Source of the DNA: Paludibacteraceae bacterium
Lineage (GTDB): Bacteria > Bacteroidota > Bacteroidia > Bacteroidales > Paludibacteraceae
DNA length: 35,192 nt
Direction: 5' to 3'
Assembly (NCBI GenBank): GCA_024399495.1
Contig: JAKSNY010000021.1
Span: 1-35,192 of the forward strand
Notes under the pieces: generated by a model
What the model was told of the DNA's origin: nothing
What the model saw: the letters and a program-made list of their open reading frames with translations, nothing else
The model's database searches: none
Part shown: in pieces, positions 18,716 through 34,938 of the stretch
How positions within the stretch are numbered: position 1 is the first letter of the stretch
Layout of the letters: each line of letters begins with the position of its first letter
Program-made: the position numbers and the translations under genes

Positions 18716-19968
18716 TATTTTGCCTGCAATGCTACAATAGGTTTTATCTTTACGGCTTTTCTGGCTGGAATGTAACCTGCAAGAGTACCTGCAACAACAA
18801 GTATGATTAATGCCGTTATTGCAATTGAAAGGTCTATTGTAGGGTTCATAAATGTAGTGAACTCTCTATCTCCGCTTTTGGGCATACTTTCCAGAACTTT
18901 AGAGACAGTCTCGCTCAACACAATTCCTAAAAACAGCCCTATGTACCCAAAACTAACCGTTATAATAAGTGATTCAAAAATTACTGATTTAAGTATTGAG
19001 GCAGGTGTAGCCCCCAATGTCTTGCGTATTCCAAACTCTTTTGTGCGTTCCTTAATAGTTATAAGCATTATGTTTCCCACACCTACAATACCTGCCACAA
19101 GTGTTCCGATACCGATAATCCATATAAAGAAGACTATAGCGGAGAATATGGAGGCGGACTGCATTGAGTTTGACACATTGTCACGAATCCACACCGCTTC
19201 CTTGTCATTGGGGTCAAAATTCAGTCGGCGGGCAAGAATCCGACGCAGTTGGTTCTGTAGAGCCTCACTCTTCTCTTTTGTATCTACTCCCGCTACAGAG
19301 AATGATATGTCTGTTATAAGCCCCGATGGGTTGAATATCATTTGTGAGGTGGAGAATGGAATATATACATCGGGTCGCCAAGACTCGCTTTTCTCTGTGT
19401 AGATGCCCACAACCTTGAATGGTATGTTGTTTATGTTTATGAATTTACCTACGCCGTCCTCGCCTTTGAACAGGTTTTTCTCTGTTTTAGGGTGGATTAG
19501 AACCACCTTGTTATGGTTTCTTTCATCTACTTCATTAAGAAAACGTCCGCGTTCAATGCTGAGGCTGCGCATAACCTCATATCCAGGTCTGACTCCGCAA
19601 AGAGACGATACATCATTCTCTCTCTTATAGGTCAGAGTGTCGTTCCATATATTGAAAATAGGGGTGTATTGCTCAACTTTTGCAATTCTACGTATCTCCA
19701 TTTCCATATAGTCAATGTCCTCAGCCTTGAAGTTAAGTTGACGGCCTTTCTGGAAGCCTGCGTAGGGCATTGTGGTTCTGCCAGGGTAGAGCATAACTGT
19801 GTTTTTTGCCATGTAGAAGAAATTTGACTCCATACCGTTTTTGAACCCATTGCCAGCGGCAAGAAGCAGTATGAGCATAAATATTCCCCATACAATGGCA
19901 AAACCTGTCAGAAAAGACCTCAGACGGTTTGCCCGTAATGCATCTAATATTTCTTTTAGAGTCTCCAA
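18715..19968 (-). CDS. MacB-like ABC transporter permease, type A, copy 2
   Basis: A 417-residue MacB-type permease with the same layout: one N-terminal helix (FLTGFAIVWGIFMLILLLAA), a periplasmic domain, and three C-terminal helices with VGNIMLITIKERTKEFGIRK between them. It is a paralogue of the permease at 22511-23761. The start is TTG at 19968, just after the adaptor stop and preceded by AAAGGAG; no in-frame ATG occurs before residue 31, inside the first helix. Coupled at its end to the type B permease. Role: export of an unknown substrate with the MacA-like adaptor and TolC-like channel. Confidence 0.9.
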   Translation of the reverse strand: METLKEILDALRANRLRSFLTGFAIVWGIFMLILLLAAGNGFKNGMESNFFYMAKNTVMLYPGRTTMPYAGFQKGRQLNFKAEDIDYMEMEIRRIAKVEQYTPIFNIWNDTLTYKRENDVSSLCGVRPGYEVMRSLSIERGRFLNEVDERNHNKVVLIHPKTEKNLFKGEDGVGKFININNIPFKVVGIYTEKSESWRPDVYIPFSTSQMIFNPSGLITDISFSVAGVDTKEKSEALQNQLRRILARRLNFDPNDKEAVWIRDNVSNSMQSASIFSAIVFFIWIIGIGTLVAGIVGVGNIMLITIKERTKEFGIRKTLGATPASILKSVIFESLIITVSFGYIGLFLGIVLSETVSKVLESMPKSGDREFTTFMNPTIDLSIAITALIILVVAGTLAGYIPARKAVKIKPIVALQAK

Positions 19969-19969
19969 A

Positions 19970-21049
19970 CTACTCCTTTATTTTATCTTCTTTACTGATT
20001 CCGCTCTTGATTTCAATGTTTATGCCGTCAGAGAGTCCAATCTTAACATCGCGGCGTTCATATACATCGGGGTCTGTAGATTTAAGAACCTCAACGTATG
20101 GTGTGTCAACTGCAAAATTAAGTGATGATTCAGGAATGGAAAGTACGCTGTCTGCCTTGCTGAGTATTATTTTAGCGTTGGCACTATATCCCGCCCTTAG
20201 AAACTCGCCTTTAGGAATGGTTACGGCAGCCTTTATCTCAAACATAACCGCTCCGTTCTCTTCTGTGCCTTTAGGAGCGATGTACTCTAATGAGGCATCG
20301 TAGTATTTACCTTCAATGGCACCTATAATAATTTGAACAGGCATTTCTATATAGAGTTTACCAACCTCAGTCTCATCAATTTTTCCCACAAACAACAAGT
20401 CATTCATATCGGCTACAGTGGCAATAGTTGTACCTTCATTAAAATTATTAGTAAGCACAACAGAGTTACCAACTTTTTCAGGAATGTCAAGTATTGTGCC
20501 TGAAACGGTGGAGCGAACGTATGTGGTACCTGTGCTCTGTGAATTTTTTGTGGCACCGTCTTTTGCTATGTCATATACGTCCTGACACCTTTGATACTCC
20601 TCTTTTGCATTGTTCAGAGTAACCTCAAACTCCTCAATATCCGCTTGTGATACAAGTTTTTTGTCATAGAGTTGTTTTTCACGGTTATAGTCAATCTGTG
20701 CCTTGTCAAGGGCTATTTGGGCTTTCTTTAACGATGCCTCCGCATTTGCAAGGGTGTTCATATCAGGTATGACACGCAGTTTGGCAATAAGTTCGCCCTC
20801 TTTCACATTATCGCCAGCCTCTTTGTATAGTTCTTCAATGATACCCGATATCTGAGGCTTGATTTTAACCTCATCACGTGGCTGAATTTTTCCTGTGGCA
20901 AGTGTAGTCTTCTCAATGGTTCGGATTTCAGGTGATATGTTCTCATATACCACCACCTCTGGTTGAGACTTCTTCCACAGATACACAAATGTTCCTACTA
21001 TTGCCGCTAAAAGCAATACCGTCAAAAAAATTCTTTTTACTCGTTTCAT
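19970..21049 (-). CDS. MacA-like periplasmic adaptor (HlyD/RND family)
   Basis: A 359-residue membrane-fusion protein starting MKRVKRIFLTVLLLAAIVG at the ATG at 21049. One N-terminal membrane anchor (about 6-24) is followed by a barrel-sandwich half (IKPQISGIIEELYKEAGD), a coiled-coil hairpin near 100-170 rich in Lys/Glu/Ala (IALDKAQIDYNREKQLYDKK), and the second lipoyl half (VRSTVSGTILDIPEKVGNSV). The beta-barrel and membrane-proximal domains come last. It would link the MacB-like permeases to the outer-membrane channel. It lies directly upstream of permease copy 2. The frame stays open for 63 codons upstream, but that stretch is repeat-like and not part of the family. Confidence 0.92.
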   Translation of the reverse strand: MKRVKRIFLTVLLLAAIVGTFVYLWKKSQPEVVVYENISPEIRTIEKTTLATGKIQPRDEVKIKPQISGIIEELYKEAGDNVKEGELIAKLRVIPDMNTLANAEASLKKAQIALDKAQIDYNREKQLYDKKLVSQADIEEFEVTLNNAKEEYQRCQDVYDIAKDGATKNSQSTGTTYVRSTVSGTILDIPEKVGNSVVLTNNFNEGTTIATVADMNDLLFVGKIDETEVGKLYIEMPVQIIIGAIEGKYYDASLEYIAPKGTEENGAVMFEIKAAVTIPKGEFLRAGYSANAKIILSKADSVLSIPESSLNFAVDTPYVEVLKSTDPDVYERRDVKIGLSDGINIEIKSGISKEDKIKE

Positions 21050-21260
21050 AATTTTTTTATTATAAATTTTAAATATTCTGCAAACATCAAGGAAAAAATT
21101 ATGAAACTTCGAAACTTCGCCTAACGGCTTGTTTAAAGTTTCTAATCCTTTTTTATTGGGGGACACCCCCAAACCCCTGCGCCAAGCGTTCGGGCATACG
21201 CCCTCTGTCGTTTCACTCCATAAGAGGTCGCTGTCCACTGTCCACTGTCAACTATCCACT
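21050..21260. other. Repeat-rich gap between the two permease blocks
   Basis: No gene is seen. It holds a direct repeat GAAACTTC GAAACTTC near 21100, a perfect hairpin TTGGGGG-ACA-CCCCCAA (21156-21172) and a heptad tract at 21232-21259. On the minus strand the hairpin is followed by A-rich, not T-rich, sequence, so it is not a standard terminator. No TAnnTTTG element was found before the adaptor gene, which may therefore depend on read-through. Confidence 0.6.
21232..21259. repeat. Heptanucleotide tandem repeat, TGTCCAC type, four units
   Basis: TGTCCAC, TGTCCAC, TGTCAAC, TATCCAC. The tract ends two bases before the permease stop codon at 21261. A related three-unit tract lies at 25859-25879, so both permease-block ends carry the same type. 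Confidence 0.8.
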
Positions 21261-22514
21261 CTATTCGTCTCTCAACGCGTCTATAGTCTTAATCTGCGAT
21301 GCTCTGTATGCAGGCATCAGACCGGCTATAAGTCCACCTGTCTCCAGTATTATAAATATTATTACAGCCAACTTAAATGGTATGTAAATGCCTTTTAATT
21401 GTACTGTATCACTTCCTTCAATGCTAGTGAATATATCCTCTAACACGGCGGATACACCTAACCCCACTATTATTCCGCCCACACCTGCCAGCAGTGACAT
21501 TAAAATGCTCTCCCATAGTATTTGCCTTACAACACTAAATGGTGTGGCTCCCAATGCACGCCTGATTCCTATCTCTTGTGTACGCTCCCTTACTGATATC
21601 AGCATAATGTTTGTGATGCACACCATACCTGCAAGCAGCGTACCTAATCCAATAACCCAAATAAGTATTCTTGTGCCCTTAAACAGGTTGTTTACTGTAT
21701 CAAAGTATTCCTTAGTGGTGTCAGAGATAATTCCCTGTTTGTCATCGGGCGATACTATAGCCCTCTCTTTAAGAAAGTTCTTTATATCTGTTTCCAAATC
21801 CAATATATTGGCATTCTTGTTTGCCGACAGTGCTATACAATCAACAATGTCGCCCGTATTGTAAATATCCGCAAATGTGGTATATGGTATAAAAATCATT
21901 TGCTCAGGGTCTCCAAATATGTTTACGTCAGTACTCTTTTCCATAACCGCTATAACAGTGTATGCCACTCCGTCAATCCAAATAAGCGTGCCTTCCGCCT
22001 TTTCAGCTCCAAATAGTCCGTTCTTTATTTGTTCACCAATCATACACACCTTGCGGTTTTGAGACACATCAATCTCATTTATAGTGCGACCCTCTAATAA
22101 AAAGCAAGGGCTTATTTGGTAGAAATCGGTTGACAATCCGTTAATAGGTACATTCTCTTTAGATTTGTCTCCTCTAATAACTATGTTTGCGTTATTCCAA
22201 AATGATGGGGAGATATATTCAATATCTTTAAATCTTGACATTATGGCTGTCATGTCGTTTGTTTTCAAATGCACACTTCTTCCTTTCTTCAACCCTTTAT
22301 ACGGCAGTGATGCATTGCGTCCATAAAAGTAGGCGGCATTGGTTGACGTTTCACCCCATGTGCTTCTCATCGCTCGTTCCACACCAAGACCGCAGCCAAG
22401 CAAAACAACAAGTATGGTCATACCCCACGCAACACCAAATGTTGTGAAAAATGTGCGTACCCTACGCTTGTGCAGAGTGTCCCATATCTCCTGTATGTAG
22501 TCTATATCAATCAT
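21261..22514 (-). CDS. MacB-like ABC transporter permease, type B, copy 1
   Basis: A 417-residue permease with an N-terminal helix (TFFTTFGVAWGMTILVVLLG), a periplasmic domain and three C-terminal helices. The coupling segment is TNIMLISVRERTQEIGIRR, and it ends IDALRDE like copy 2. The ATG overlaps the stop of the type A permease by four bases (ATGA). It pairs with that permease as a heteromeric exporter driven by the ATPase two genes upstream. Confidence 0.9.
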   Translation of the reverse strand: MIDIDYIQEIWDTLHKRRVRTFFTTFGVAWGMTILVVLLGCGLGVERAMRSTWGETSTNAAYFYGRNASLPYKGLKKGRSVHLKTNDMTAIMSRFKDIEYISPSFWNNANIVIRGDKSKENVPINGLSTDFYQISPCFLLEGRTINEIDVSQNRKVCMIGEQIKNGLFGAEKAEGTLIWIDGVAYTVIAVMEKSTDVNIFGDPEQMIFIPYTTFADIYNTGDIVDCIALSANKNANILDLETDIKNFLKERAIVSPDDKQGIISDTTKEYFDTVNNLFKGTRILIWVIGLGTLLAGMVCITNIMLISVRERTQEIGIRRALGATPFSVVRQILWESILMSLLAGVGGIIVGLGVSAVLEDIFTSIEGSDTVQLKGIYIPFKLAVIIFIILETGGLIAGLMPAYRASQIKTIDALRDE

Positions 22515-23761
22515 TTAGACATTATAGCATCTATTGTTTTTATATGTGACGCCTTGTGTGCCGGTATAAAGCCCGCTATGGCACCTACAATTACAAGCAA
22601 AATAAGAGCGTTAACTGCTACATGTAAATCTATAGTAGGGTCCATAAATGTCTTTACAAATCTCTTGTCAGGTGGAATTATAACTAAAAGTTTTGCCACA
22701 ATCTCAGTAGTTAAGATTCCTAAAAACAGACCAATATATCCAAAGCCTATGGTTATAATAAGTGATTCCAAAATAGTGTTTCCCACTATTGATGCTGGTG
22801 TGGCTCCCATTGCCTTTCTTATTCCAAACTCTTTAGTACGTTCCTTTACAGTAACAATCATAATGTTACCAACTCCCACAATGCCTGAGATAAGAGTGCT
22901 TATGCCTATTATCCATAAAAACAAGTTTATATAACTTAAAATATTGGCTGTCCGTGCGGCTGTTCTGACGCTGTTAATTATACCTAAAGCCTCTTCATCA
23001 CTGGGGTCAAAATTCATACGTTTGGCTGTCAGTTCCCTTAACTCTTTTGCAAATTCCTCACTCTGTTGTATTGTTGTAATTCCATCAACAGTAAAAGTTA
23101 TGTCTGTAACTGTTTTTTCAGGATTAAATAGCACTTGTGATGTTGAAAAAGGAATAACCACTCTTTCACGCGCAAGGTTACCCTTCCTTGTAAAAACTCC
23201 TACCACTTCAAAAAGAATATCGTTGTATTTCACAAGTTTGCCTATCGGGGACTCATCTTCAAAAAGATATTCCGCAGTTTTCTTGGGGATAAGCATTACC
23301 TTATTACGCTTAATCTCATCAGTCTTATTCAGCAATCTGCCTTCAACTATTGTTAAATTTCTGATTTTATCATATCCGGGTCTTGCACAAAACATATTGA
23401 CTATTGTATTCTCATCCTCATATACAATATTTGCACCCAGAATGCTGTATATGGGTGTAAACACATTTACTTTTACCATCTTGCCAATCTCTTTCTCAAA
23501 GAAATCTATGTCTTCTTCAGAAAATACGATTTGTCTTCCTTTTTGTAATCCATTGTAAGGCTTGGTTGTCTTGCTGGGGTATAGGGCAAAGGTGTTTTTT
23601 GCTATAAAGGAGGATTCGGAATCCAAGCCGTGCTTAAATCCGTTAGCGGTGGCAATAAGCAATATGAGCATATAGATACTCCATATTATTGCAAATCCCG
23701 TAAGGAAAGTCCTAAAACGGTTTGCATTCAACGCATCTAATATTTCTCTAATTGTCTCCAA
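22511..23761 (-). CDS. MacB-like ABC transporter permease, type A, copy 1
   Basis: A 416-residue MacB-type permease (N-terminal FLTGFAIIWSIYMLILLIAT; coupling segment VGNIMIVTVKERTKEFGIRK). It starts at TTG 23761, inside the 3' end of the ATPase gene (14-base overlap); as in copy 2 there is no in-frame ATG before residue 31. It shares the METxxEILDALxANRxRxFL opening with copy 2, which supports the TTG start in both. Probably the partner of the type B permease. Confidence 0.9.
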   Translation of the reverse strand: METIREILDALNANRFRTFLTGFAIIWSIYMLILLIATANGFKHGLDSESSFIAKNTFALYPSKTTKPYNGLQKGRQIVFSEEDIDFFEKEIGKMVKVNVFTPIYSILGANIVYEDENTIVNMFCARPGYDKIRNLTIVEGRLLNKTDEIKRNKVMLIPKKTAEYLFEDESPIGKLVKYNDILFEVVGVFTRKGNLARERVVIPFSTSQVLFNPEKTVTDITFTVDGITTIQQSEEFAKELRELTAKRMNFDPSDEEALGIINSVRTAARTANILSYINLFLWIIGISTLISGIVGVGNIMIVTVKERTKEFGIRKAMGATPASIVGNTILESLIITIGFGYIGLFLGILTTEIVAKLLVIIPPDKRFVKTFMDPTIDLHVAVNALILLVIVGAIAGFIPAHKASHIKTIDAIMSK

Positions 23762-24419
23762 TTATTCCGTCCTGTATCTTTATTAGTCTGTCCGTTTGTG
23801 CCGCAACATTGGGGTCATGCGTAACTATAATCATTGTCACACCCTCTGTGCGGTTCACCTCGCGTAAAAGTTGCATAACCTCTTTTGATGTCTGTGAATC
23901 CAATGCACCTGTAGGCTCATCGGCAAGAATTATTTTAGGCTTTGCAATTAAGGCTCTGGCTATTGCCACACGCTGCTTCTGACCGCCTGACATTTCATTT
24001 GGCAAATGTTCTGCCATATCTTTAATCCCCATTTTATCCAAGTATTCAAGTGCTATGGCGTTACGTTGTTTACGTCTGATACCTCTATAATATAAAGGTA
24101 AAGCCACATTTTCCATTGCGTTCTTGAAATTAAGCAGGTTATAAAATTGGAATACAAATCCTATTTTCTGATTCCGCAGTTTGGCAGACTTGGTTTCTGA
24201 CAAGTCTTTGATTAGTTCTCCGTCAAGCAGATACTCTCCCTCATCGTAGTTGTCAAGCATACCTAAAATGTTTAGCAGGGTTGATTTTCCTGAGCCGGAT
24301 GCACCCATAACGGATACAAACTCACCTTCATTAATGGTAAGATTAATGCCTTTTAGTACGTGAAGCGGAGCCCCTACGTTGTAGGTCTTGTGGATGTTCT
24401 TTAGTTCTATTATAGACAT
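23748..24419 (-). CDS. ABC transporter ATPase, MacB/LolD-type
   Basis: A 223-residue ATPase. Walker A GASGSGKST is at 39-47, the Q loop is in VFQFYNLL, the signature MSGGQKQRVAIARAL near 143, Walker B IILADEPTGALD near 160 and the H loop in IIVTHD. It is the only ATPase in the ten-gene efflux region, so it probably serves both permease pairs. It is five bases or fewer from the TolC-like gene and overlaps the next permease by 14 bases. Confidence 0.96.
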   Translation of the reverse strand: MSIIELKNIHKTYNVGAPLHVLKGINLTINEGEFVSVMGASGSGKSTLLNILGMLDNYDEGEYLLDGELIKDLSETKSAKLRNQKIGFVFQFYNLLNFKNAMENVALPLYYRGIRRKQRNAIALEYLDKMGIKDMAEHLPNEMSGGQKQRVAIARALIAKPKIILADEPTGALDSQTSKEVMQLLREVNRTEGVTMIIVTHDPNVAAQTDRLIKIQDGIIGDN

Positions 24420-24423
24420 ATGT

Positions 24424-25761
24424 TTAATTATTGTTTCCTACTTTTATCTCTTTATCTTGTAACACATTAAGCAGTTGTAAAGATACTATTGCCTTGTAGC
24501 GGCACTGAATGACTTCCTGCTCTGCCGCAAACAGATTTTTCTCTTCTGTGAGCAAATCAACTGTGTTTTTCATTCCTACATTGTACTGTGCCGATACTAA
24601 GTCATAACTCTCTTGGGCATAGCCAAGTTTCTCTTTAGCGGTGATGTAGTTGTCTTGAGCATTAAGTGCGTTTACATACAGGGTTTCCACATTTTTTGAA
24701 ATCTCTTTATCTACAAGTTCATAGTTAAGTTTGTTGCTCTCAATGGCAAGATTGGCTTTGTTTACAGCTGTCTTAGTGGAGCGTTGGTCATAGATGGGAA
24801 CGCTTAGAGTGAGACCTGCCGTAGGTCCAAGAGATTGCTTGAACTGTTCTCCTATGTTTATTCCTTGTCCTGTAGCGTATGAGCCGCTTAGACCTGCGTT
24901 AAGTGAAATAGACGGTATCCAACCCGATTGTGCTACGCGTTTTGATAACTCCGCACTTTTTATATTAAGTTTAGCCGCTTTTACAGATGGCATTGATTCC
25001 ATTGCGGTATTATATATCTCTAACATATCGGGTAGTGGGGCAAGAATCTCTGCATCATCAATCTCAGGGAAATTTACACTGAAATCATCGGTAATGTCAA
25101 GTTCAAGAACCTGTTTCAGATTCAGTATGTCTATTCTGAGATTGTTGCGGCTTATTGTGAGGTTGTATTTGTTGCTTGCCCATTGTGACGCTACCTGAGC
25201 CAAGGCGCTTTTTGTTATTTTGCCTACTTCATACATTGCCTTTGAACGTTCATACTCAGCGTTGCTCAGTTCAAAGATTTTCTCACTTGTCTTAACGGTT
25301 TCGTTATCATATAAAACCTGTAAATAGGCTTCCAATACGCTGGTCTGAATCTGTTTCTTACTTGCGTTCACGTCTTCCTTACTGCTTTCAAGCAATACCT
25401 CATTCTGCTTTTTGGTGTAGTGCAGTCTGCCTCCTGAAAACACAGGCATATTAAGGTTTATGCCGTATGTGGCGCTATATACGGATTGGTTGTCAGGTCC
25501 AAGCATATTTTGGTAGGCGTATCCCTGATTTGTGCTTGCGTTTATGTTTGGGGCAAACGCCTGTTTTGATTGCTCAAGAGTCTCGTGTGCCGAACTCTCT
25601 GCAACTTGTTTTTGCAGTACGTTTATATTGTGACTTAAAGCGTAATCCAAACACTGTGTCAGAGTCCAGTCCTTATAACTTTTACTCTCTTCTTGTGCCA
25701 CCGCCTGTAGTGCTATGGTGGCAATAACTAAAATAAGTGCAAATCTGTGTGTGTTTCTCAT
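24424..25761 (-). CDS. TolC-like outer-membrane efflux protein
   Basis: A 445-residue outer-membrane channel protein. A signal peptide (FALILVIATIALQAVAQ) is probably cleaved after about residue 22. Two OEP-type halves follow: the first begins WTLTQCLDYALSHNINVLQKQ, and the second has VKAAKLNIKSAELSKRVAQS and ESYDLVSAQYNVGMKNTVDL, the usual helical periplasmic barrel repeats. It would provide the exit duct for the MacA/MacB-like exporter. First gene of the transporter operon proper, 117 bases downstream of the PspC-domain gene. Confidence 0.93.
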   Translation of the reverse strand: MRNTHRFALILVIATIALQAVAQEESKSYKDWTLTQCLDYALSHNINVLQKQVAESSAHETLEQSKQAFAPNINASTNQGYAYQNMLGPDNQSVYSATYGINLNMPVFSGGRLHYTKKQNEVLLESSKEDVNASKKQIQTSVLEAYLQVLYDNETVKTSEKIFELSNAEYERSKAMYEVGKITKSALAQVASQWASNKYNLTISRNNLRIDILNLKQVLELDITDDFSVNFPEIDDAEILAPLPDMLEIYNTAMESMPSVKAAKLNIKSAELSKRVAQSGWIPSISLNAGLSGSYATGQGINIGEQFKQSLGPTAGLTLSVPIYDQRSTKTAVNKANLAIESNKLNYELVDKEISKNVETLYVNALNAQDNYITAKEKLGYAQESYDLVSAQYNVGMKNTVDLLTEEKNLFAAEQEVIQCRYKAIVSLQLLNVLQDKEIKVGNNN

Positions 25762-27162: not shown

Positions 27163-27494
27163 TGTTTTATATGTGTTATTGTTTGTTCTATAGAGTTCCA
27201 TGTAGTTTCCATCTCCGCAAGCAGTTTCTCTCCGTCTTCTGTAAGCTGGTAGTATTTACGTGGCGGACCTTGCGTGGATTCCACCCAAGAGTAGGTAAGC
27301 ACACCATTGTTCTTTAATCGGCTAAGAAGAGGGTAGAGCGTTCCTTCCACAATTATAAGTTCAGCATTTTTCAGTTCCTCTATTATATCAGAGGAGTATG
27401 ATGCCTTCTTTTTAATAAGCAACAGTACACTATACTCCAAAATGCCTTTACGCATCTGAGAGTTTATGTTTTCTATTAGTGCTTGTTCTATCAT
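27159..27494 (-). CDS. PadR-family transcriptional regulator
   Basis: A 111-residue winged-helix regulator. QMRKGILEYSVLLLIKK, then EGTLYPLLSRLKNNGVLTYSW and GPPRKYYQLTEDGEKLL, are classic PadR. It probably binds as a dimer, with the C-terminal helix used for dimerisation. The start is the ATG at 27494. It heads the unit padR, PspC-domain gene and perhaps the exporter. A 6-bp inverted repeat over its own -33 box (27545-27561) suggests autoregulation. Confidence 0.93.
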   Translation of the reverse strand: MIEQALIENINSQMRKGILEYSVLLLIKKKASYSSDIIEELKNAELIIVEGTLYPLLSRLKNNGVLTYSWVESTQGPPRKYYQLTEDGEKLLAEMETTWNSIEQTITHIKQ

Positions 27495-27522
27495 TTATAC
27501 CTCTTTGTTATCTTATCGGGTG

Positions 27523-27553
27523 CAAAGATAAATAAAATTTTAGAACTATGCAA
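27523..27553 (-). promoter_or_regulatory. Promoter of the padR-like operon
   Basis: TTG (27551-27553), a 20-base spacer and TATCTTTG (27523-27530) on the minus strand. Transcription would start near 27517, about 23 bases before the ATG. Confidence 0.75.
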
Positions 27554-27561
27554 TACATAGT
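27545..27561. promoter_or_regulatory. Candidate PadR operator over the -33 box
   Basis: ACTATG-CAATA-CATAGT is a perfect 6-bp inverted repeat with a 5-base centre. It contains the TTG of the -33 element. PadR regulators commonly bind AT-rich dyads with TATG/CATA cores near their own promoters, so occlusion of the -33 box is a reasonable inference. Confidence 0.5.
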
Positions 27562-27582
27562 ACTAAAAATTTACAACAATAG

Positions 27583-28914
27583 TTATAATTCACCTTGAAA
27601 CATAACTATTTTAGAGAGAATGAAAGAATACAATTTTTTATTAAGAATATTAAGCAGTTTTTTTTTGTTAGAATTTGTTAAGGATAAATCGAAATAGTTA
27701 GATTTTATCCTTTGAATTAGTTGTGAATAAAGCGTAGTTTTTTTTAATTCATACAAAAGAATTGTATCTGTCTTATCTAGTTTTATAGAAATGTGTTCTG
27801 AATTTATCATAGGAACAGTGACGTAATCACGATGAAATTCCAAAAAAGGTGTTAGTTTAATGAGAAAATCAGTTCCTTGCTCTATTGCATTAACGAATTT
27901 TGATGGTCCTCCAATTATATACAAATCACGTAATACTAAAGATTCCATTTTGTGTTTGGATATAATTGATGGATTATGAAACCAATGTTTTAACAAAATC
28001 TCTATGGATTCAGTGTTGAAATTTACAATTTCTTTTAAAAAATTGTGTTCGTCAAACTGATAAAAATTTTGTATTTTATCGAAATAAGATGGGTAAAATC
28101 TGATTACATTATTTAATACATCAAAACAAAAATGCGTTTGTTTTTTTGCTGTTGCCATTAAATGAGTATAGTCAGAAAATTTTGGAACTAAGTTAAAATT
28201 AGATAGAACTGCATAATTGCATTTTTCAACTTCTCCGTTCAGTAAAACAGATACTTTCTCATTCTCTTTATGAACCATTTCGTATAATAGCACTTGTTCA
28301 AAAAATACGTTAAAATTATTTAACGAATATGACATAAGAGAGTCCATGTTTTTATTAACAAAGTCAAGAGCGGCAATACTGTAGCGTTTAATAAAGTCAA
28401 TATTACATCCACCAAATACTCCCATATTATATGCGTATCGTTTGGTTTTCATTCCAAAATGGCACATCGCTTCTCCTAAAAAAGTTAATTTTGGTTCATA
28501 TATGCTCCAGTTTTTTGTGTAATAATCGTTCGTTGCATCTTCTTTATTTTGTACGATAATATTTGCATTATTAACATAAGTTGGGAAGGGATTCCACAAA
28601 TAAAAATCTCCATCAATATGAATAAATGGCTCATTCTGTTCAGCGTAGGTCTTTATTTTTGCTGTTGCCCATAAGTCGTCGCGGAAAATCACATCAAAAT
28701 TTATTTTATGTATTTTTGTATAATCGATACCTAACATGCCAATCAATAATTCACGACCAAATTCATCCGTATACAATTCAACATCATCGTAATACTTTAT
28801 TAATTGATTTGCACTTAAAATCCAACTGAGAGCATTATACTTTGGCTCTAACCATCCAAAATTAGAATTCATATCTGGATTGCTTCCTGAATAAAAAGTT
28901 TGAATATATCTCAT
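27583..28914 (-). CDS. DUF6734-family, glycosyltransferase-like protein
   Basis: A 443-residue soluble protein, last gene of the peptide cluster. The opening IQTFYSGSNPD then FGWLEPKYNALSWILS, plus WATAKIKTYAEQNEPFIHID and GDFYLWNPFP, match my memory of DUF6734 proteins. HIDGDFY (99-105) offers a DxD-like pair (Asp101, Asp103), as in nucleotide-sugar transferases with a GT-A fold. The longer C-terminal half (about 270-443) is unassigned. The ATG overlaps the protease stop (ATGA). It might glycosylate the small peptide encoded upstream, or a cell-surface target; that is inference. Markedly AT-rich. Confidence 0.7.
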   Translation of the reverse strand: MRYIQTFYSGSNPDMNSNFGWLEPKYNALSWILSANQLIKYYDDVELYTDEFGRELLIGMLGIDYTKIHKINFDVIFRDDLWATAKIKTYAEQNEPFIHIDGDFYLWNPFPTYVNNANIIVQNKEDATNDYYTKNWSIYEPKLTFLGEAMCHFGMKTKRYAYNMGVFGGCNIDFIKRYSIAALDFVNKNMDSLMSYSLNNFNVFFEQVLLYEMVHKENEKVSVLLNGEVEKCNYAVLSNFNLVPKFSDYTHLMATAKKQTHFCFDVLNNVIRFYPSYFDKIQNFYQFDEHNFLKEIVNFNTESIEILLKHWFHNPSIISKHKMESLVLRDLYIIGGPSKFVNAIEQGTDFLIKLTPFLEFHRDYVTVPMINSEHISIKLDKTDTILLYELKKTTLYSQLIQRIKSNYFDLSLTNSNKKKLLNILNKKLYSFILSKIVMFQGEL

Positions 28915-30095
28915 TTTAATTTCAAATACAAGTGTTTACAAAAGTTAAATAAAAGTAAATAAAAAATGGCTGGGCGTAACAATGCAAAAAATGTAGCATA
29001 ATAAATTTCACCATCATTGCACACGCCAAGTATTAGATGTATTATATTAATCGGAAATTTGATAATAGAATCCAATTCAGTTGACACCATATAAACAACG
29101 AAAGAGGCTGTCATTGCGTAACACGTAAGTCCATAAATAGCGACAAAAGCATGCGAAATTTGAATGTTGTTATCTTTGTTTTTAAATAATTCTGTGAAAT
29201 AGTTTACATATTTCCAAATATTATTGAAAACATTAGGCTCATTAATTAAATCACAAAACAGCCAAAAACCATCCGTTCTGATAAACGGATTAAGATTAAA
29301 CAAGCAAGAACATAAAATGGCCCACGCAGATATTATACATATAGGTGATGACGCAAGTACGCCAACAAACAGTACAACAGACGAAAATATTATTTCAAAA
29401 TACACTCCTGCAATATCAACAATTACTCTTTCTTTTTTTGGTAAGCGCCAAACATCAGTTATTTCAGAATACAATACGAATTGGAAAAAATAAAAGCCAC
29501 ATCCAATCTCTCCATTTTTAGCTCCAAAAAACGAGGCGGAAGCGGAGTGTCCAAGCTCATGAAAAATAGAACTGATAAAAAAGATCAGAGTGAATTTCCA
29601 CCATGAAAAATGAGTGGATAGGTCTATTTGTTGAAAAACAAAAAAACTGCATAATAACCATATAACAATAGAAACAAGTATAGAAATTATTATCGTTTTT
29701 ATTTGAAGCAAAAAATATGTGTGTGTTACACACTTAGCGACAAAAGCAGAAGGGAACAATCTTAGTCTTAGTTGGATGTAAGATGGGGATGTCTTTACTC
29801 GATTAACTGGGTGCTCACGAAAAAAGCCAAGCGAAATTAATTTAAAAATGGTGTCATTATAATCAGCAACTAATGCGTTTTCTTCTTTAACATACATATT
29901 GTTATATGTGTCAATGATGTCTTTAATAGACCTCTCTCCGTCAAACAACATTAACAAGTTGTATGTTTGGTGATTAATTTTAACATATAGGTTTTGTTCT
30001 TTGCTTGAAACCAAATAGCTATATTTAGAAAATTTTGTAATGTTAATGCTATCCAACAAAGATAGTACCTCATTTCCAATCACAGGCTCTTCCAT
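28911..30095 (-). CDS. PqqD-like domain fused to an M50-type membrane metalloprotease
   Basis: A 394-residue fusion. Residues ~15-95 form a PqqD-type winged helix (NLYVKINHQTYNLLMLFDGE, then RSIKDIIDTYN), the fold that recognises leader peptides in many peptide-modification systems. Next come membrane helices from about 131. HELGH has zinc ligands His179 and His183 with Glu180 catalytic. NLNPFIRTDGFW (267-278) carries Asp275 as the probable third ligand. Further helices run to the end. This is the layout of peptide-maturation site-2-type proteases. It should sit in the inner membrane and cut or help export the modified peptide. Starts at ATG 30095, overlapping the isoprenoid-enzyme gene by 26 bases. 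Confidence 0.85.
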   Translation of the reverse strand: MEEPVIGNEVLSLLDSINITKFSKYSYLVSSKEQNLYVKINHQTYNLLMLFDGERSIKDIIDTYNNMYVKEENALVADYNDTIFKLISLGFFREHPVNRVKTSPSYIQLRLRLFPSAFVAKCVTHTYFLLQIKTIIISILVSIVIWLLCSFFVFQQIDLSTHFSWWKFTLIFFISSIFHELGHSASASFFGAKNGEIGCGFYFFQFVLYSEITDVWRLPKKERVIVDIAGVYFEIIFSSVVLFVGVLASSPICIISAWAILCSCLFNLNPFIRTDGFWLFCDLINEPNVFNNIWKYVNYFTELFKNKDNNIQISHAFVAIYGLTCYAMTASFVVYMVSTELDSIIKFPINIIHLILGVCNDGEIYYATFFALLRPAIFYLLLFNFCKHLYLKLK

Positions 30096-30870
30096 ATGAA
30101 TCTATCACATTAGTAACGTTTTGAGACAGACAGTCTATTGCCAATTCAAAATTATCCACAGAAACATTATGTTTTGGCAAAAAAGATTTTGCCTTATTGA
30201 AATGGTATTTGGACAATTGTAAAACTTCTATTTTTAAGTCGGGTGAAATTTGAAAAGTATCCAAATGATAAATGCCTTTTTTTCTGCATTGATACAACAA
30301 CCAATTAAACTGGTTCTTTTTCAAGTCTTCGTTTACATCAAGGACATCATCTAACAATTGGTACGCAATAGAAAAGTTTGAGTAGGAGTTAAACAATGAA
30401 TTATGAATTTTCCAGTTCTTGTCATCTGCAATGTAATGCAATGCATCAATTGCTAAAGCCCCCAACCCAGCTTTTTTTACTGATATCTCGCAATAATCAG
30501 ACCATAAAGCGGAGTCATGATTTATATTTTTTTCGTAATCTATGGCTTGAAAGAAAAAATATTTCCTTTCTCTCCAAAGTCTCCAAAAATCAGATTTCAA
30601 GGGAAATATTTGATGTAGTTTCTCTAAACTCATTTCAAACAAAGAAAGCATAAATGGAGAACGGTCAACATCTTGATCATCTATTATTCTGTCAAGTTGC
30701 ATTACACACTGGTATAGTAGATAACCAGAATCATTCAAATCTTTAATACGATCATCATCATTTAAATGATAATAAGGGGTGAACAACGATGCAAAATGAC
30801 GGTAGAATTCTGGTGACTTATCCAATGATGTAATGACATCAATTGGATTGTCCAATTGATTTGTTGACAT
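30070..30870 (-). CDS. Class I isoprenoid-synthase-fold protein
   Basis: A 266-residue all-helical protein. It has both Asp-rich motifs of class I prenyl synthases: MQLDRIIDDQDVD (57-69; Asp60, 64, 65) and YQLLDDVLDVNEDLKKNQFN (170-189; Asp174, 175, 178, Glu181). The second motif is intermediate between polyprenyl synthetase and squalene/phytoene synthase forms. It is shorter than usual polyprenyl synthetases and not next to any isoprenoid-pathway gene; it lies between the secreted-protein gene and the PqqD-protease. I infer that it modifies the 41-residue peptide, for instance by prenylating Trp as ComQ does for ComX. Alternatives: a stand-alone prenyl diphosphate or terpene synthase. Confidence 0.75.
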   Translation of the reverse strand: MSTNQLDNPIDVITSLDKSPEFYRHFASLFTPYYHLNDDDRIKDLNDSGYLLYQCVMQLDRIIDDQDVDRSPFMLSLFEMSLEKLHQIFPLKSDFWRLWRERKYFFFQAIDYEKNINHDSALWSDYCEISVKKAGLGALAIDALHYIADDKNWKIHNSLFNSYSNFSIAYQLLDDVLDVNEDLKKNQFNWLLYQCRKKGIYHLDTFQISPDLKIEVLQLSKYHFNKAKSFLPKHNVSVDNFELAIDCLSQNVTNVIDSYGRACDWK

Positions 30871-30914
30871 AAAAAATAGGATTGTATTTGACCTTCACCT
30901 TATTATAATCACGT

Positions 30915-32084
30915 TTATTGTTCGTGGATAAACAGATTGTCTCTTTTAAATGATTCCAATATAATGTTTTCTTCCGCAGTGCGTTTAACCATTGGGTTGC
31001 TATCCCAAAAATCAGGATCATACTTGAATTTATAGATTGCAGAAAGCAAGTCGGTATCCCACTTTATATTTTTACGTCTGTTTTTTGATTGTAATGATGT
31101 TTTTGTTAAAAATGCATTGCCATCAAAATGGTTTGTCTGTCCATTGTCTGAAACAGCATCAAGACAAATGTGTAATGATATAGAACGAATATATGGAGTA
31201 GAATCGGCTGACTCTCCGTAAGATATTGTGGTATGCATAACATCGTTTTGTATCTTTGTATTTGGTATTTGTAGAGATTGCTCCGCTCCTATTGTCTTTT
31301 TTTCATATTGGAGTAAAACATTCCCTATCGTTTTTACATATAGTTTGATACTTACGTTTGATGTTTTAAATGGTATTAGTCTGTAAACTATTATCTCGTT
31401 ATCCGTATCAGCATCGATTATTTTGTCTATGGTAATATCATAGACCTTATCAAAATTAGCATATAGGGAACTAGGGTATGGAGAATTAAAATATATCCAT
31501 TGAGCAATAGGTGGAGTACAGCAAAACGCAAAAAGATTGTACCAACTAATTTTCAATCCAGTTAAGTCTTTTCTCCCGAATCTTCCTTCAATAAGCTTCA
31601 TATCGGGGATTTCGTAAATGCCTTTACCTGTAAAGAGAGCCTCTAAGTATTCGTAGCAGGAATCATTTTTATACGACAACTGTCTGAAGTACCAATTCTG
31701 CCAGTCGCCTTCTCCATATTTCAGGTATTTTTTTCTTAATGATTTTAATCTTTTCACCATTATTTCTTTTGGCAGGAATACGGCTTCGGATAATTTGTAT
31801 GGTTTTGGATTTAAAAATATTCTTTCGCTTACATCAAGTGTATTTGAAATAATAGTGTCTCCGTATGAAATGTGGGAAATTTTAATGCTTGTGTTTGGTG
31901 TTGTTTTTAGTTCAAATTCGCCTTCTTTATTTGATAGAGTGTTTGCTTCTCCGCACTCGATATAAGCAAACTCTATAGGCTGACCAGTTTCCGCATCTAA
32001 TAAAGAAGCGGAAACAGATTCATTAGCCGACGATTTCCCAATTAGTAGAATCAGGGCAAAAACAATTAGAAGGTGTCTATACAT
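30915..32084 (-). CDS. Secreted carboxypeptidase-regulatory-like beta-domain protein, paralogue 1
   Basis: A 389-residue exported protein. A signal peptide (HLLIVFALILLIGKSSA) is followed by a CarboxypepD_reg-like Ig-type domain (about 23-95: ASLLDAETGQPIEFAYIECG, then ISHISYGDTII). The rest, about 100-389, has no known match to me. It ends WDSNPMVKRTAEENI then NLFIHEQ. It starts 11 bases after the small peptide gene, so the two are co-transcribed. It resembles the 396-residue protein at 33724-34914 throughout and the one at 32545-33690 more weakly. Periplasmic or outer-membrane; role unknown, perhaps in export or perception of the peptide. Confidence 0.8.
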   Translation of the reverse strand: MYRHLLIVFALILLIGKSSANESVSASLLDAETGQPIEFAYIECGEANTLSNKEGEFELKTTPNTSIKISHISYGDTIISNTLDVSERIFLNPKPYKLSEAVFLPKEIMVKRLKSLRKKYLKYGEGDWQNWYFRQLSYKNDSCYEYLEALFTGKGIYEIPDMKLIEGRFGRKDLTGLKISWYNLFAFCCTPPIAQWIYFNSPYPSSLYANFDKVYDITIDKIIDADTDNEIIVYRLIPFKTSNVSIKLYVKTIGNVLLQYEKKTIGAEQSLQIPNTKIQNDVMHTTISYGESADSTPYIRSISLHICLDAVSDNGQTNHFDGNAFLTKTSLQSKNRRKNIKWDTDLLSAIYKFKYDPDFWDSNPMVKRTAEENIILESFKRDNLFIHEQ

Positions 32085-32095
32085 AACCCCAGGAG

Positions 32096-32221
32096 TTAAA
32101 GATAGAAACCAACGGCTGGTGAGCCATAGTCACTAGCATGCCAACTCCACTTCATTTCATAACGTTGTTCTAATTCTTCGACATCAAAATTAGTAATTTT
32201 TTTCTTTAGATTGTTATTCAT
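32096..32221 (-). CDS. Putative modified-peptide precursor (41 residues)
   Basis: A short gene I found by translating the gap. The first half, residues 4-24, is charged and leader-like (LKKKITNFDVEELEQR then YEMK), with a pattern that recalls Bacteroidota natural-product leaders. The tail WSWHASDYGSPAVGFYL (25-41) is rich in aromatic residues and Ser/Gly and has no Cys, no Thr and no Gly-Gly cleavage site. An in-frame TAA lies just upstream of the ATG at 32221, fixing the start. It has its own strong-looking promoter and a structured leader, and stands 11 bases before the secreted-protein gene. Trp25 and Trp27 are candidate sites for prenylation. No peptide product is proven. Confidence 0.75.
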   Translation of the reverse strand: MNNNLKKKITNFDVEELEQRYEMKWSWHASDYGSPAVGFYL

Positions 32222-32234
32222 AATTACTTAAGTT

Positions 32235-32276
32235 GGGATCTGCTAATTTGTAATCCTCATTAGGCAGACAGATCCC
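32235..32276 (-). promoter_or_regulatory. Leader hairpin before the peptide gene
   Basis: GGGATCTG (32235-32242) pairs with CAGATCCC (32269-32276). Inside it CTAAT pairs with ATTAG across a 5-base bulge. It lies in the transcribed leader, ending 14 bases before the ATG, without a T tract. Possible roles: control of translation start or mRNA stability. Confidence 0.55.
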
Positions 32277-32313
32277 ATTTATTCTGCCGATGAGTTTATT
32301 GACTTTTTGTTAT

Positions 32314-32335
32314 ATGACGGTCGTTGATACGTCAT
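32314..32335. promoter_or_regulatory. Candidate operator-like inverted repeat
   Basis: ATGACG (32314-32319) and CGTCAT (32330-32335) form a perfect 6-bp inverted repeat with a 10-base spacer. It lies just downstream of the predicted transcription start of the peptide operon, a position suited to a repressor. No regulator gene for it is visible in the cluster. Confidence 0.35.
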
Positions 32336-32346
32336 CAAAACGATTG

Positions 32347-32377
32347 CAAAGGTATTTCATTAAGATGCTAAAACCAA
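32347..32377 (-). promoter_or_regulatory. Promoter of the peptide operon
   Basis: TTG (32375-32377), a 20-base spacer and TACCTTTG (32347-32354) on the minus strand. Transcription would start near 32341, giving a leader of about 120 bases. This is independent support that the 41-codon gene is expressed as the first gene of its own unit. Confidence 0.75.
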
Positions 32378-32544
32378 TGGAAGTAGTGGAAATAGTAGTA
32401 AAAACCTGCCTATTCTAAATTATAAATTCTTGATAATCATAGTATTCGGTGTAATGGGGGGGTGAAAAAAAGTAGTAAAAAAGATAAGGAAATGTAAAAT
32501 TTATATCAAAAATGCAGTGATATAATTCCTACAGGAAAAATACA

Positions 32545-33690
32545 CTAATACAAAATATATTCCTTGTCAATGTTCTGAAGACTTTCTTCTTTTTCTCGTT
32601 CTGATTTGGTTTGAATAATCTGCATTAGCTGAAATGGTGGAAGTTCTATAAATTCACTTGTATGTTTTTCACTAACGGCAGGTTTTAAATTTAACTCAGC
32701 CTCTTTGGATTCAAATTTCTTTCCTGAAAATTTCCCTTTAGATGATTCTATAATATAGAAAATTTTATACTTTGCATTTGTCGCATAGAATAACCCATTT
32801 GTGTTATTGTAAGTAATATCAGTGGCTATTGTCCATGTTGTGAAATCATATCCCATAATGGAATGTATGGTTGAACGGGCAAAACCGTCAATATAATTAT
32901 GAGTGTTATAATCCAGTTTCGTTTCCCGATGTACTAAATGAATAGTGCAATGTGCAGTATCAACCCTCATATATCCATAGTCTCCGTCGCCATATTTTAA
33001 TGATTCAAAACCTATCTGTACTATGTTTGGGTTATCATTGTCAGGTATGTCAATTTCAGAAAAAGTATGACTTTTAATGAATTTTTTTGTCAATGTTCTC
33101 ATAAAGTCTTCATATAGTATTCTTCTCATACATGTAAAATCACACCCGGCAGTATTGTCTTTGAAGTGAATTTTTGCAGTAGATGGAGATACAAAATAGT
33201 TTTTTTTAGGAGCATCAAGTAATAATCCTTGACTTTCAAACCAGTATCCACTCTCACTGTTTATGCATCCGGTCCTATAGTCATAGTTGAATGTTGTTGA
33301 AATTACTTTGTTTACATCGCTGTTCTTTTGAACCAGTTTCTTAAGGAAAGGTCTTATCCATTCAGGCTCTTTGCTGGATATTTTTATCTCTTGCAGAATG
33401 TATGATTTAGGAGTCAGGAACAGAGTGTCTCCTATTTTACTGATAGTTGATGTTTCATAGTTTATATGAGATATGGTCAGTTCTTTAAAAGGAAAATCCA
33501 CGTTGCAAATTCCGTTGTTATCACTTATTGTTCCTTTTACAGCCCCATTCTCTATTTTGTAAACATTGGCATAAGATACGGGGATTTGATTGACATTATC
33601 CCATATAACGGTTCTTGTTTGAGCATACATGGCTCCGTAAAGTGCAATAACCATTAAAGTCAGCACTGTTTTTTTAATAATTGATTTCAT
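32545..33690 (-). CDS. Secreted carboxypeptidase-regulatory-like beta-domain protein, divergent paralogue 2
   Basis: A 381-residue exported protein. A signal peptide (TVLTLMVIALYGAMYAQ) is followed by a CarboxypepD_reg-like domain (ISYANVYKIENG-like strand SYANVYKIENG, then ELTISHINYETSTIS and LTPKSYILQEIKIS). The remainder shows alternating beta-strand-like sequence and differs from the two neighbouring paralogues: it lacks the EFLEALFTG-type segment and the NLF-His end, and closes with Lys/Glu-rich sequence ending KEYILY. It is 33 bases after the 396-residue paralogue and probably co-transcribed with it. Function unknown. Confidence 0.75.
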   Translation of the reverse strand: MKSIIKKTVLTLMVIALYGAMYAQTRTVIWDNVNQIPVSYANVYKIENGAVKGTISDNNGICNVDFPFKELTISHINYETSTISKIGDTLFLTPKSYILQEIKISSKEPEWIRPFLKKLVQKNSDVNKVISTTFNYDYRTGCINSESGYWFESQGLLLDAPKKNYFVSPSTAKIHFKDNTAGCDFTCMRRILYEDFMRTLTKKFIKSHTFSEIDIPDNDNPNIVQIGFESLKYGDGDYGYMRVDTAHCTIHLVHRETKLDYNTHNYIDGFARSTIHSIMGYDFTTWTIATDITYNNTNGLFYATNAKYKIFYIIESSKGKFSGKKFESKEAELNLKPAVSEKHTSEFIELPPFQLMQIIQTKSEREKEESLQNIDKEYILY

Positions 33691-33723
33691 ATAATTTAGT
33701 GTTTGTTGTTATTTTGACGGAGT

Positions 33724-34914
33724 TTAAGGGTGATGTTGGAACAGATTTTCCTTTGTGAAGAACTCCACAATTCCAGACTCTTCCTCAGATCGCTTGATGT
33801 ATGGGTTGTTATCCCATGACTTGATTTTAAAATCTCCCCAATACAGAATGTGCAGCAAATTGTTGTTGAGGTCAATTTTCTTTCCTCTGCCATTGGGACG
33901 GTAATCGGTCTTTGACATAAATGTGCGAATACGGAATCCAACACGCTTGTAGTTTTCGTCTTCCATAAACGCAACTTCAGATTCAGTGTTTATGTAATTT
34001 ATTTCCGGCTGTCCGGCAAGGGTGTTATATGAGATAGTCACCCTTACGTTGTTTTTTATGACCTGCCTATTATAATAATCTACGTATAAATTATCAGATA
34101 AGCTCATATTGTATTCAAGCAACTTCAAATCCTTGGTCCTTATAGTAAGACAAATGTAATCCAGTCCTGTCTTCTCTTTTGTGGTAAGTTTATATCGAAC
34201 CGCCTCATTTGAAGAGCCATCATTAATGATTTTATCAATCGTCACATCGAAAAGTTTTTCAAAATTATCATACAGTGAAAATAGTCTGTTCCTACGGCTA
34301 TTCTGTTTCTTAGACATACCCTTCTCAAATGGTGAAATGGTGCAAAAGGCATACGCATTGGTCATTGAAAGCGGAGTACGTCCGTCATACTGTTGAATCT
34401 TAGCCCAGCGACCATCCTGCACTCTCAGTTCAGGGATACGATATCCGTCACTTCCAGTGAAAAGTGCCTCAAGAAACTCAGTGCAAGTGTCATTTGCAAA
34501 AGTAAGTTGCGTGTAATACCAGTTCTTCAATACATTCTCATTAGTTTTGATTGCAAGGTATTTATCTCTGGCTGCCTTCAAACGTTTCATTATGACGGCA
34601 TCGGGAATGACAACCGACTCTTTTAAATCATATCTGGACTCTTCAAGATAAATAGTGTCTTCAATGGCACTTGGTGAAACGATGACATCATTGTATGAAA
34701 TATGTGAAATATTAATCTGACCATCGTCCGCTGGCAACTCAAACACACCATCATAGTTCGTGAATGTGTAATTTTTGCTGTTGGTCACATAGGCAAACGG
34801 AATCGCATTCCCTGTGGTCTTGTCAACCACAACAGAGGAAACAGAGGCTCCGTTGACTGTCAAAATATTTGCAACAGCAAATAATGTCAATATTTGACGT
34901 GTTGTAAAATTCAT
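33724..34914 (-). CDS. Secreted carboxypeptidase-regulatory-like beta-domain protein, paralogue 3
   Basis: A 396-residue exported protein. A signal peptide (ILTLFAVANILTVNGAS) is followed by a CarboxypepD_reg-like domain (TGNAIPFAYVTNSKNYTFTN then INISHISYNDVIVS). Then come MKRLKAARDKYL, CTEFLEALFTGSDGYRIPEL and FDVTIDKIINDG. These match paralogue 1 (MVKRLKSLRKKYL, CYEYLEALFTGKGIYEIPDM, YDITIDKIIDAD), and the ends match too (WDNNPYIKRSEEE, NLFQHHP). The pair is thus a gene duplication with one copy inside the peptide operon. No TAnnTTTG promoter was found upstream. Confidence 0.8.
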   Translation of the reverse strand: MNFTTRQILTLFAVANILTVNGASVSSVVVDKTTGNAIPFAYVTNSKNYTFTNYDGVFELPADDGQINISHISYNDVIVSPSAIEDTIYLEESRYDLKESVVIPDAVIMKRLKAARDKYLAIKTNENVLKNWYYTQLTFANDTCTEFLEALFTGSDGYRIPELRVQDGRWAKIQQYDGRTPLSMTNAYAFCTISPFEKGMSKKQNSRRNRLFSLYDNFEKLFDVTIDKIINDGSSNEAVRYKLTTKEKTGLDYICLTIRTKDLKLLEYNMSLSDNLYVDYYNRQVIKNNVRVTISYNTLAGQPEINYINTESEVAFMEDENYKRVGFRIRTFMSKTDYRPNGRGKKIDLNNNLLHILYWGDFKIKSWDNNPYIKRSEEESGIVEFFTKENLFQHHP

Positions 34915-34938
34915 TGTTCTAGAAGTTGTTTGGAGACG

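Follow-up and report, generated by a model that had tools for sequence, protein, structure and literature searches.

A candidate peptide-prenylating RiPP cassette with a stand-alone isoprenoid-synthase-fold enzyme and an M50 protease in a Paludibacteraceae bacterium

The stretch of DNA analysed here, called the window below, is the whole 35,192-nucleotide contig C14 (JAKSNY010000021.1) of a Paludibacteraceae bacterium (assembly GCA_024399495.1, listed as 82.5% complete). Towards its end lies a cassette of five open reading frames (ORFs), all on the minus strand, which we read as a candidate system for the prenylation of a ribosomally synthesised and post-translationally modified peptide (RiPP). 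In transcription order the ORFs encode a short precursor peptide, a secreted-type protein, a class I isoprenoid-synthase-fold protein, an M50 metalloprotease and a protein of the DUF6734 family (Table 1). Gaps of 11 and 44 bases are followed by overlaps of 26 and 4 bases. An original prediction, made from the letters of the window, had described these five genes with this order, strand and spacing, and the ORF coordinates agree with it. A gene similar to that of the secreted-type protein is located between precursor and prenyltransferase in several relatives. The content of guanine plus cytosine (GC) is 28-34% in the five cassette genes compared to 40% in the first 27 kb of the window. Searched as a single sequence, the isoprenoid-fold protein had no counterpart in a family sample of 249 other genomes, and a profile of the isoprenoid domain found none in the remaining 15 genomes of the genus, which include several incomplete ones. 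From these observations the gene looks acquired.

Table 1. Positions of the cassette genes and accompanying features in the window.
Feature	Position	Strand	Evidence
Bacteroidetes-type -7 box TACCTTTG upstream of the precursor gene; weak consensus match	32347..32354	-	upstream element 3/4 matches
Predicted gene for a 41-aa precursor; core KWSWHASDYGSPAVGFYL (putative leader/core border)	32096..32221	-	ORF, phmmer, leader comparison
Secreted-type protein, 389 aa, CarboxypepD_reg-like N-terminal domain	30915..32084	-	CarbopepD_reg_2 1e-4, below cut-off
Class I isoprenoid-synthase-fold protein, 266 aa	30070..30870	-	polyprenyl_synt 1.1e-5, just below Pfam cut-off
Intramembrane M50 metalloprotease, 394 aa, weakly supported PqqD-like N-terminal domain	28911..30095	-	Peptidase_M50 1.3e-5, just below Pfam cut-off
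DUF6734 protein, 443 aa, HIDGD (GT-A-like DxD) motif	27583..28914	-	DUF6734 6.8e-79
ABC / FtsX-type permeases / membrane fusion protein / TolC exporter genes	17462..25761	-	homologous modules by the enzyme pair in the window's tree clade
Two more secreted-type proteins upstream that may or may not belong to the cassette; a CarboxypepD_reg-like domain in the second, as in the 389-aa protein	32545..33690, 33724..34914	-	ORFs, Pfam

The leader FDVEELEQRYEM recurs near relatives of the isoprenoid-fold enzyme and of the M50 protease in other Bacteroidota and in Balneolota. Its motif reads F-D-V-E-E-L-E-Q-R-Y-E-M in the window and follows the consensus F-x-V-E-E-L-E-x-R-x-E-M, or near variants of it, and phmmer relates the 41-residue peptide to precursors from other genera (5e-6 and 1.5e-5). 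Outside its Trp the core is variable in length, charge and Cys content. The locus thus has what defines a RiPP cluster, namely a short precursor with a conserved leader and a variable core, adjoined by a modifying enzyme and a protease. The recurrence of the leader and the matches in other genera bear out the proposal that the short gene encodes a precursor, and judged by sequence comparison it is of RiPP type. When seven precursors with this leader were compared with NCBIfam none scored over a cut-off, the one weak match coming from locus L034 (14.8 of 35 bits). In Chryseobacterium defluvii (L087:7836-8881) six distinct precursors are arranged in series before one fused enzyme, and all six carry Trp at core position 2 or 3.

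The position of Trp in the precursors tracks the presence of the isoprenoid-fold enzyme. Of 39 precursors from 27 enzyme-bearing loci, 34 have a Trp at position 2-6 after the leader motif, whereas none of nine peptides from eight M50 loci with related leaders and no isoprenoid enzyme has such an early Trp (in L131 it stands at position 8). The contrast gives Fisher values of 1.2e-6 by peptide and 2.1e-5 by locus (23/27 against 0/8), which overstate the evidence because loci and peptides are related by descent. Shuffling the cores in 5000 rounds yielded an early Trp in 12.0 +/- 2.7 of the 39, with a maximum of 21. The original prediction had looked to the isoprenoid-fold and/or the DUF6734 protein for the modification chemistry; of the two, the isoprenoid-fold enzyme is the better candidate. 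Duplicates from the same contig or with the same peptide were omitted from the count (L028, L032, L034, L037, L078, L080-L082 and L120), as were L083, a contig without a precursor, and the enzyme-bearing loci in which no precursor was found (L076, L128, L129 and L138). Among the M50 loci without the enzyme, L132 (no precursor) and L136 and L137 (not searched by eye) were left out. The peptides of L124, L125, L123, L038 and L039 and one peptide of L031 were picked by eye and not by the motif; among them L038, L039 and L123 have more divergent leaders.

In a 395-genome sample of the phylum, M50 relatives were found in 22 other genomes, and their neighbourhoods contain a recurring isoprenoid-fold homologue together with short ORFs that have one common leader. 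A profile of the isoprenoid domain gave ten strong matches in these 395 genomes (the source genome and nine others, E <= 1.6e-33, the next match having 7.6e-13). An M50 gene lies within a few kb in eight of the nine other genomes, and in the ninth (G262) the two genes are near the ends of two contigs; the profile had been built from M50 neighbours, and hence this test favours M50-linked members and is not blind. A scan of GTDB with one genome per species gave 19 loci, located in Flavobacterium, Aquimarina, Allomuricauda/Flagellimonas, Chryseobacterium defluvii, Balneolaceae and others. The M50 gene adjoins in 17 of the 19, or in 13 of 15 without the contigs that were a source of the query (L071, L073, L078 and L087), and as L078-L084 are near-identical the 15 loci are not independent cases. 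An adjoining M50 gene is missing at two loci, of which L081 is a rearranged copy and L089 lies at a contig end. Such a neighbourhood search had been proposed with the original prediction, and its outcome is that homologues of the cassette genes co-occur in other genomes with the short gene kept beside the enzymes. Plasmids contained no isoprenoid-fold relative and no fused relative; 3 pattern stretches in viral contigs and 37 in genome contigs (single-sequence query) came up for the isoprenoid-fold protein, none of which was confirmed. At L078, L079, L080 and L082 (Allomuricauda and a metagenome-assembled genome) the cassette is nearly the same from precursor to M50 gene and the 47-residue precursor is identical; the upstream outer flanks of L079, L080 and L082 differ, and together with the near-same cassette this suggests recent horizontal movement. 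In two genera the opposite strand carries lantibiotic-dehydratase genes close to the cassette (L076:9202-12407, identified by appearance, and L077:116-3165, by Pfam).

The window enzyme carries both Asp motifs, D60xxxD64 and D174D175xxD178xxxD182. These six Asp residues are present in 31 of 31 aligned homologues and Q171, in front of the second motif, in 30 of 31. The two predicted Asp motifs are present, and the polyprenyl_synt match, weak by itself, fits the predicted isoprenoid fold. The family profile and ordinary prenyl synthases are related with an hhalign probability of 98.1, in a set of ordinary enzymes that includes two intermediate matches (L052 and L053). Most relatives are larger: 24 of the 31 homologues in the tree belong to a fused prenyltransferase-cyclase type of about 650 residues, three of them truncated, interrupted by a stop or shortened (L089, the first copy of L077, and L138). 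The C-terminal domain of the fusion matches SQHop_cyclase_C in two of three tested cases (L037 3.4e-15, L029 4.3e-7; none for L032). For a cyclase-domain profile made from 12 fusions the nearest solved relative is MstE (E 1.6e-38), with the DxD motif of MstE aligned. This domain is absent from the window ORF, which ends at 266 residues and overlaps the M50 gene; the window protein is related to the N-terminal, prenyltransferase part of the fusions. Stand-alone forms occur among the fusions in two parts of the tree, one comprising the window protein, L121, L128 and L129 and the other L031, L124 and L125, and this distribution, at moderate support values, makes repeated loss (or gain) of the cyclase probable. 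Solved-structure matches of the single window protein were mainly Kelch-type designed proteins and were not taken as meaningful. Broken copies are seen at L081:8824-9873, where the fused enzyme is truncated without an M50 gene behind it, and at L077:8908-10700, where an in-frame stop separates the two enzyme domains.

The M50 protein is of the site-2 type, as it combines an HExxH motif (HELGH at residues 179-183) with an NPxxxxDG-type second motif around D275. Residues H179, E180, H183, P270, D275 and G276 are present in 12 of 12 aligned M50 proteins, all of which match Peptidase_M50 at E <= 0.1, the window's own score lying under the Pfam cut-off. The protein had been described as a PqqD-M50 fusion. 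The M50 half of this description stands, while the PqqD half comes down to weak similarity: the window N-terminus has no Pfam match at E <= 1 (PF05402 cut-off 23.4 bits), TIGR03859 reaches 13.5 bits (E 0.05), two of 18 homologous M50 N-termini match PqqD (best E 0.023), the best solved chain for the region is a PqqC/D protein at a weak E of 0.036, and a small hhalign comparison with four PqqD-like pieces gave a probability of 1.8. With matches this weak we dropped a firm PqqD assignment; a PqqD-like N-terminus is plausible but weak.

Sister M50 loci carry a lipid-A-acyltransferase-like protein instead of the isoprenoid enzyme (L036, L038, L123, L127 and L131-L134). PF03279 was matched in five of the six tested, over the cut-off in L131 (1.4e-9), L133 (1e-7) and L127 (4.4e-5) and under it in L036 (1.1e-4) and L123 (0.035); the L038 protein has no Pfam match and is linked by phmmer to those of L123, L127 and L131 (1e-10 to 1e-8). 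L132 was assigned by phmmer, and L134 by its position and its likeness to L133. The acyltransferase-like proteins of L133 and, under the cut-off, of L131 also match PqqD. These loci give rise to the idea of an interchangeable lipid enzyme, suggesting an interchangeable peptide-lipidation platform. A radical SAM/SPASM protein is often found at the acyltransferase-like loci, which are candidates for acylated RiPPs. Radical SAM proteins were identified by Pfam at L029, L030 and L038, and homologues of these occur elsewhere; the earlier statement that the window contains no radical SAM enzyme is correct and has to be qualified by these related loci. No radical SAM relative was found in the source genome, a weak negative with no control match in a genome that is 82.5% complete. 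At L039:8994-13785 the M50 gene lies beside a YcaO gene (SagD-type, 1.2e-76), a nitroreductase gene and a Cys/Gly-rich 59-residue peptide, an azole-type variant of the platform.

The DUF6734 family was found in nine of 218 genomes including the source genome, which has four copies. All 11 aligned proteins have H99, D101 and D103, an HxDxD motif that reads HIDGD in the window. In nine further stretches that were examined for context (L155-L163), C39-type ABC transporters are close to the gene in both other stretches of the source genome (Pfam) and in L160 (phmmer and appearance). Short peptides of the double-glycine type lie beside it in L155, L158, L159 and L161; only that of L161 scores over the cut-off of an NCBIfam model, the class I lanthipeptide leader (8e-12), and the rest were recognised by eye or by weak matches. 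L161 also holds a LanB-type gene, and in L156 and L086 the DUF6734 protein is fused to a C39 domain. No sign of a peptide cluster was seen beside the gene in L162 (phage-like), L157 (contig edge) and L163 (fragment). L086 is the only other enzyme-bearing locus with a DUF6734 protein among the neighbourhoods examined. The family, of unknown function, is not named in the literature searched, and from its motif and its neighbours we read it as a peptide-associated, glycosyltransferase-like protein. The stretches L155 (C22) and L156 (C10) are two more clusters of peptide type in the source genome and combine DUF6734 with C39 transporters, a C39-VKOR-thioredoxin protein and a 95-residue double-glycine-type peptide.

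PadR and PspC genes are located between the exporter genes of Table 1 and the cassette. Homologues of the exporter module lie beside the enzyme pair in five of six members of the window clade and at none of 24 other loci (Fisher 4e-5, or 2e-4 when L128 and L129 are counted as one), in a post hoc test on a clade with modest support (86/78). Close homologues are found in L126, L128 and L129; L119 contributes only an 80-residue ABC piece at a contig end, and a distant permease (L034/L071, 2e-29) and other ABC matches (L082 and L125) were scored as no. We infer that the ABC/FtsX/TolC exporter would serve product export here and do not claim this for the system in general. L123, an acyltransferase-type locus, also carries part of the module. 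L128 and L129 have the stand-alone enzyme, the M50 protease and the exporter, and no precursor with the leader motif was found in them. The precursor gene had been predicted to have its own promoter, one of the weaker parts of the prediction: the -7 box is a weak match with its upstream element, and sigma-70-like sites number 36 against 41.7 in shuffled sequence. Positions 27000-35192 have no match to Rfam families. At the other end of the window, positions 466-3409 contain two adjoining cytosine-methyltransferase-like genes and a third that is maybe a restriction enzyme, by sequence appearance only.

ChrPC, according to a review on peptide prenylation, uses a trans-isoprenyl-diphosphate-synthase (IDS)-like domain to prenylate an internal peptide Trp with C10-C20 donors, and its C domain cyclises the chain (PMC13290415). 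The cassette is very likely a Trp-prenylating RiPP system of this kind with a stand-alone prenyltransferase. Gene set, conserved leader, conserved Trp, catalytic residues and co-occurrence are seen in the sequences. It is probable that a prenylated peptide arises by the steps proposed here, in which the chemistry, the cleavage site, the order of events, the sugar and the export are what we would expect from the genes. The FxVEELExRxEM leader would recruit the 41-residue precursor, and the 266-residue enzyme would move a prenyl group (C10-C20 by analogy) from the diphosphate onto a Trp close behind the leader (W2 or W4 in KWSW..., the start of the core). Without the cyclase domain that most relatives have, the chain would remain linear, or the indole itself might cyclise as in ComX. 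Drawn to the membrane by its lipid tail, the peptide would lose its leader to the PqqD-like/M50 protease there; a lipid-tailed substrate and an intramembrane protease fit each other. DUF6734 may attach a sugar and the ABC/FtsX/TolC exporter may take the product out. A more ambitious version, tentative and in our view rather doubtful, would see a lipo-glyco-RiPP, whose Trp is prenylated by the stand-alone trans-IDS-like enzyme and which is glycosylated by DUF6734 as a new class of peptide glycosyltransferase. It would be made on a modular platform of one leader and M50 protease with interchangeable lipid enzymes (linear or cyclised isoprenoid, or lipid-A-acyltransferase-like, some with a PqqD-like domain).

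Several observations weigh against Trp prenylation by the window enzyme, in addition to the common descent of the loci and the M50-derived profile mentioned above. The second Asp motif is complete, as in ordinary prenyl diphosphate synthases. The Gln in front of it is also found in aligned ordinary prenyl synthases and is not diagnostic; since these have it too, it is compatible with Trp recognition and no proof of it. The intact DDxxD motif and the absent cyclase domain would suit a 266-residue protein that works as a prenyl diphosphate synthase or has degenerated to a remnant, serving donor supply or peptide binding, with DUF6734 modifying the peptide by glycosylation, and the occurrence of that family beside other peptide clusters and its glycosyltransferase-like HxDxD motif point in the same direction. 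We consider this unlikely, as the domain family (E <= 1.6e-33) is well separated from the ordinary prenyl synthases that these genomes also encode (E >= 7.6e-13), the precursor Trp goes with the isoprenoid enzyme, and DUF6734, present at one other enzyme-bearing locus (L086) of those examined, is no common denominator.

The choice of residue is also challenged by some relatives. L031 (two peptides), L124 and L125 have Tyr or Phe and not Trp at the site, and L029 has a Trp only at position 19 after the motif. The enzymes of L031, L124 and L125 are stand-alone like that of the window and belong to another part of the tree. Prenylation of another residue (Tyr, Ser, Cys), with Trp as just a recognition element, would accommodate them, yet Trp is conserved amid a variable core and all characterised enzymes of this type act on Trp, according to the review (PMC13290415), which makes this quite improbable. 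The window domain furthermore sits on a long branch (1.21), and no relative in the tree is more than 36% identical to it. That branch, the missing matches in the 15 genomes of the genus and one broken relative (the first copy of L077, with its in-frame stop between the domains) would be compatible with a decaying remnant, a once-fused enzyme that lost its cyclase and is now inactive. However, its catalytic residues are all conserved, the ORFs are intact and closely packed with the M50 gene overlapping, and stand-alone forms stand in two separate parts of the tree; we regard decay as very improbable.

If the prenylation reading is true, isoprenoid-synthase-fold peptide prenylation reaches a stand-alone form in another Bacteroidota lineage. 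The leader is easy to search, and precursors that fall under NCBIfam cut-offs can now be mined directly. A leader and an M50 protease shared across isoprenoid and acyltransferase-like loci would, if this holds, yield the testable rule that intramembrane proteases process lipid-tailed ribosomal peptides. DUF6734 gains a concrete hypothesis, that of a peptide glycosyltransferase.

The abstract of a 2024 paper on peptide-terpenoids reportedly describes widespread pathways with fused prenyltransferase-cyclase maturases. Our literature searches for a system that joins a RiPP and an M50 protease with a terpene cyclase or a prenyltransferase gave no paper, apart from one on graspetides. The claim that no such system had been described did not survive, and we dropped categorical novelty, since the review describes ChrPC, a prenyltransferase-cyclase fusion acting on a peptide Trp (PMC13290415). 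It also reports NctPC, in which an unrelated prenyltransferase fold is joined to an MstE-like C domain (PMC13290415). The window enzyme has the trans-isoprenyl-synthase-like domain for an internal Trp in common with ChrPC. An MstE-like cyclase is fused to this domain in the majority of its relatives, including one from Chryseobacterium defluvii (L087). The fused relatives are very likely of the ChrPC type, a link made by architecture and not by the ChrPC sequence, which also weighs against a close equation of the two. Asp motifs, Gln and a precursor with Trp are present in the window and the fused MstE-like cyclase is absent; the enzyme is a prenyltransferase domain alone, and DUF6734 is added to the operon. 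MstE itself (PDB 6sbg), a monodomain class II terpene cyclase, resembles the cyclase of the fused relatives, and the window has no such domain. The daptide and epipeptide (YydH/LiaK) proteases are homologous to the M50 protein and are its closest NCBIfam models (NF041824 5.7e-27, NF058609 1.2e-15), but the window protein scores far under their cut-offs (94.8 of 300 and 57.8 of 225 bits) and they have other partner enzymes. We know of no M50 or DUF6734 protein at the ComQ/ComX locus of Bacillus. That system is likewise built from a small stand-alone isoprenoid-fold enzyme and a short peptide prenylated on Trp, and ComQ keeps the first and fifth Asp of the first motif (PMC5331326). A difference that again speaks against the proposed function is that ComQ has a pseudo second Asp motif, while DDxxD is intact in 31 of 31 members of the window family; according to the same source, ComX has no obvious leader recognition sequence (PMC5331326). 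PalQ of Paenibacillus alvei is a Trp prenyltransferase of the isoprene-synthase superfamily in a RiPP cluster, but its target is a C-terminal Trp behind an NHLP leader, and the accessible part of its description mentions no cyclase domain (PMC10853753). Leader-dependent Trp prenylation is also reported for lanthipeptides, by an unrelated enzyme (PMC12715784). In comparison to these systems, the cassette looks like a pared-down relative of the peptide-terpenoid systems published in 2024, and the addition of DUF6734 and the exchange of the lipid enzyme could be its new parts, as far as the literature searches show.

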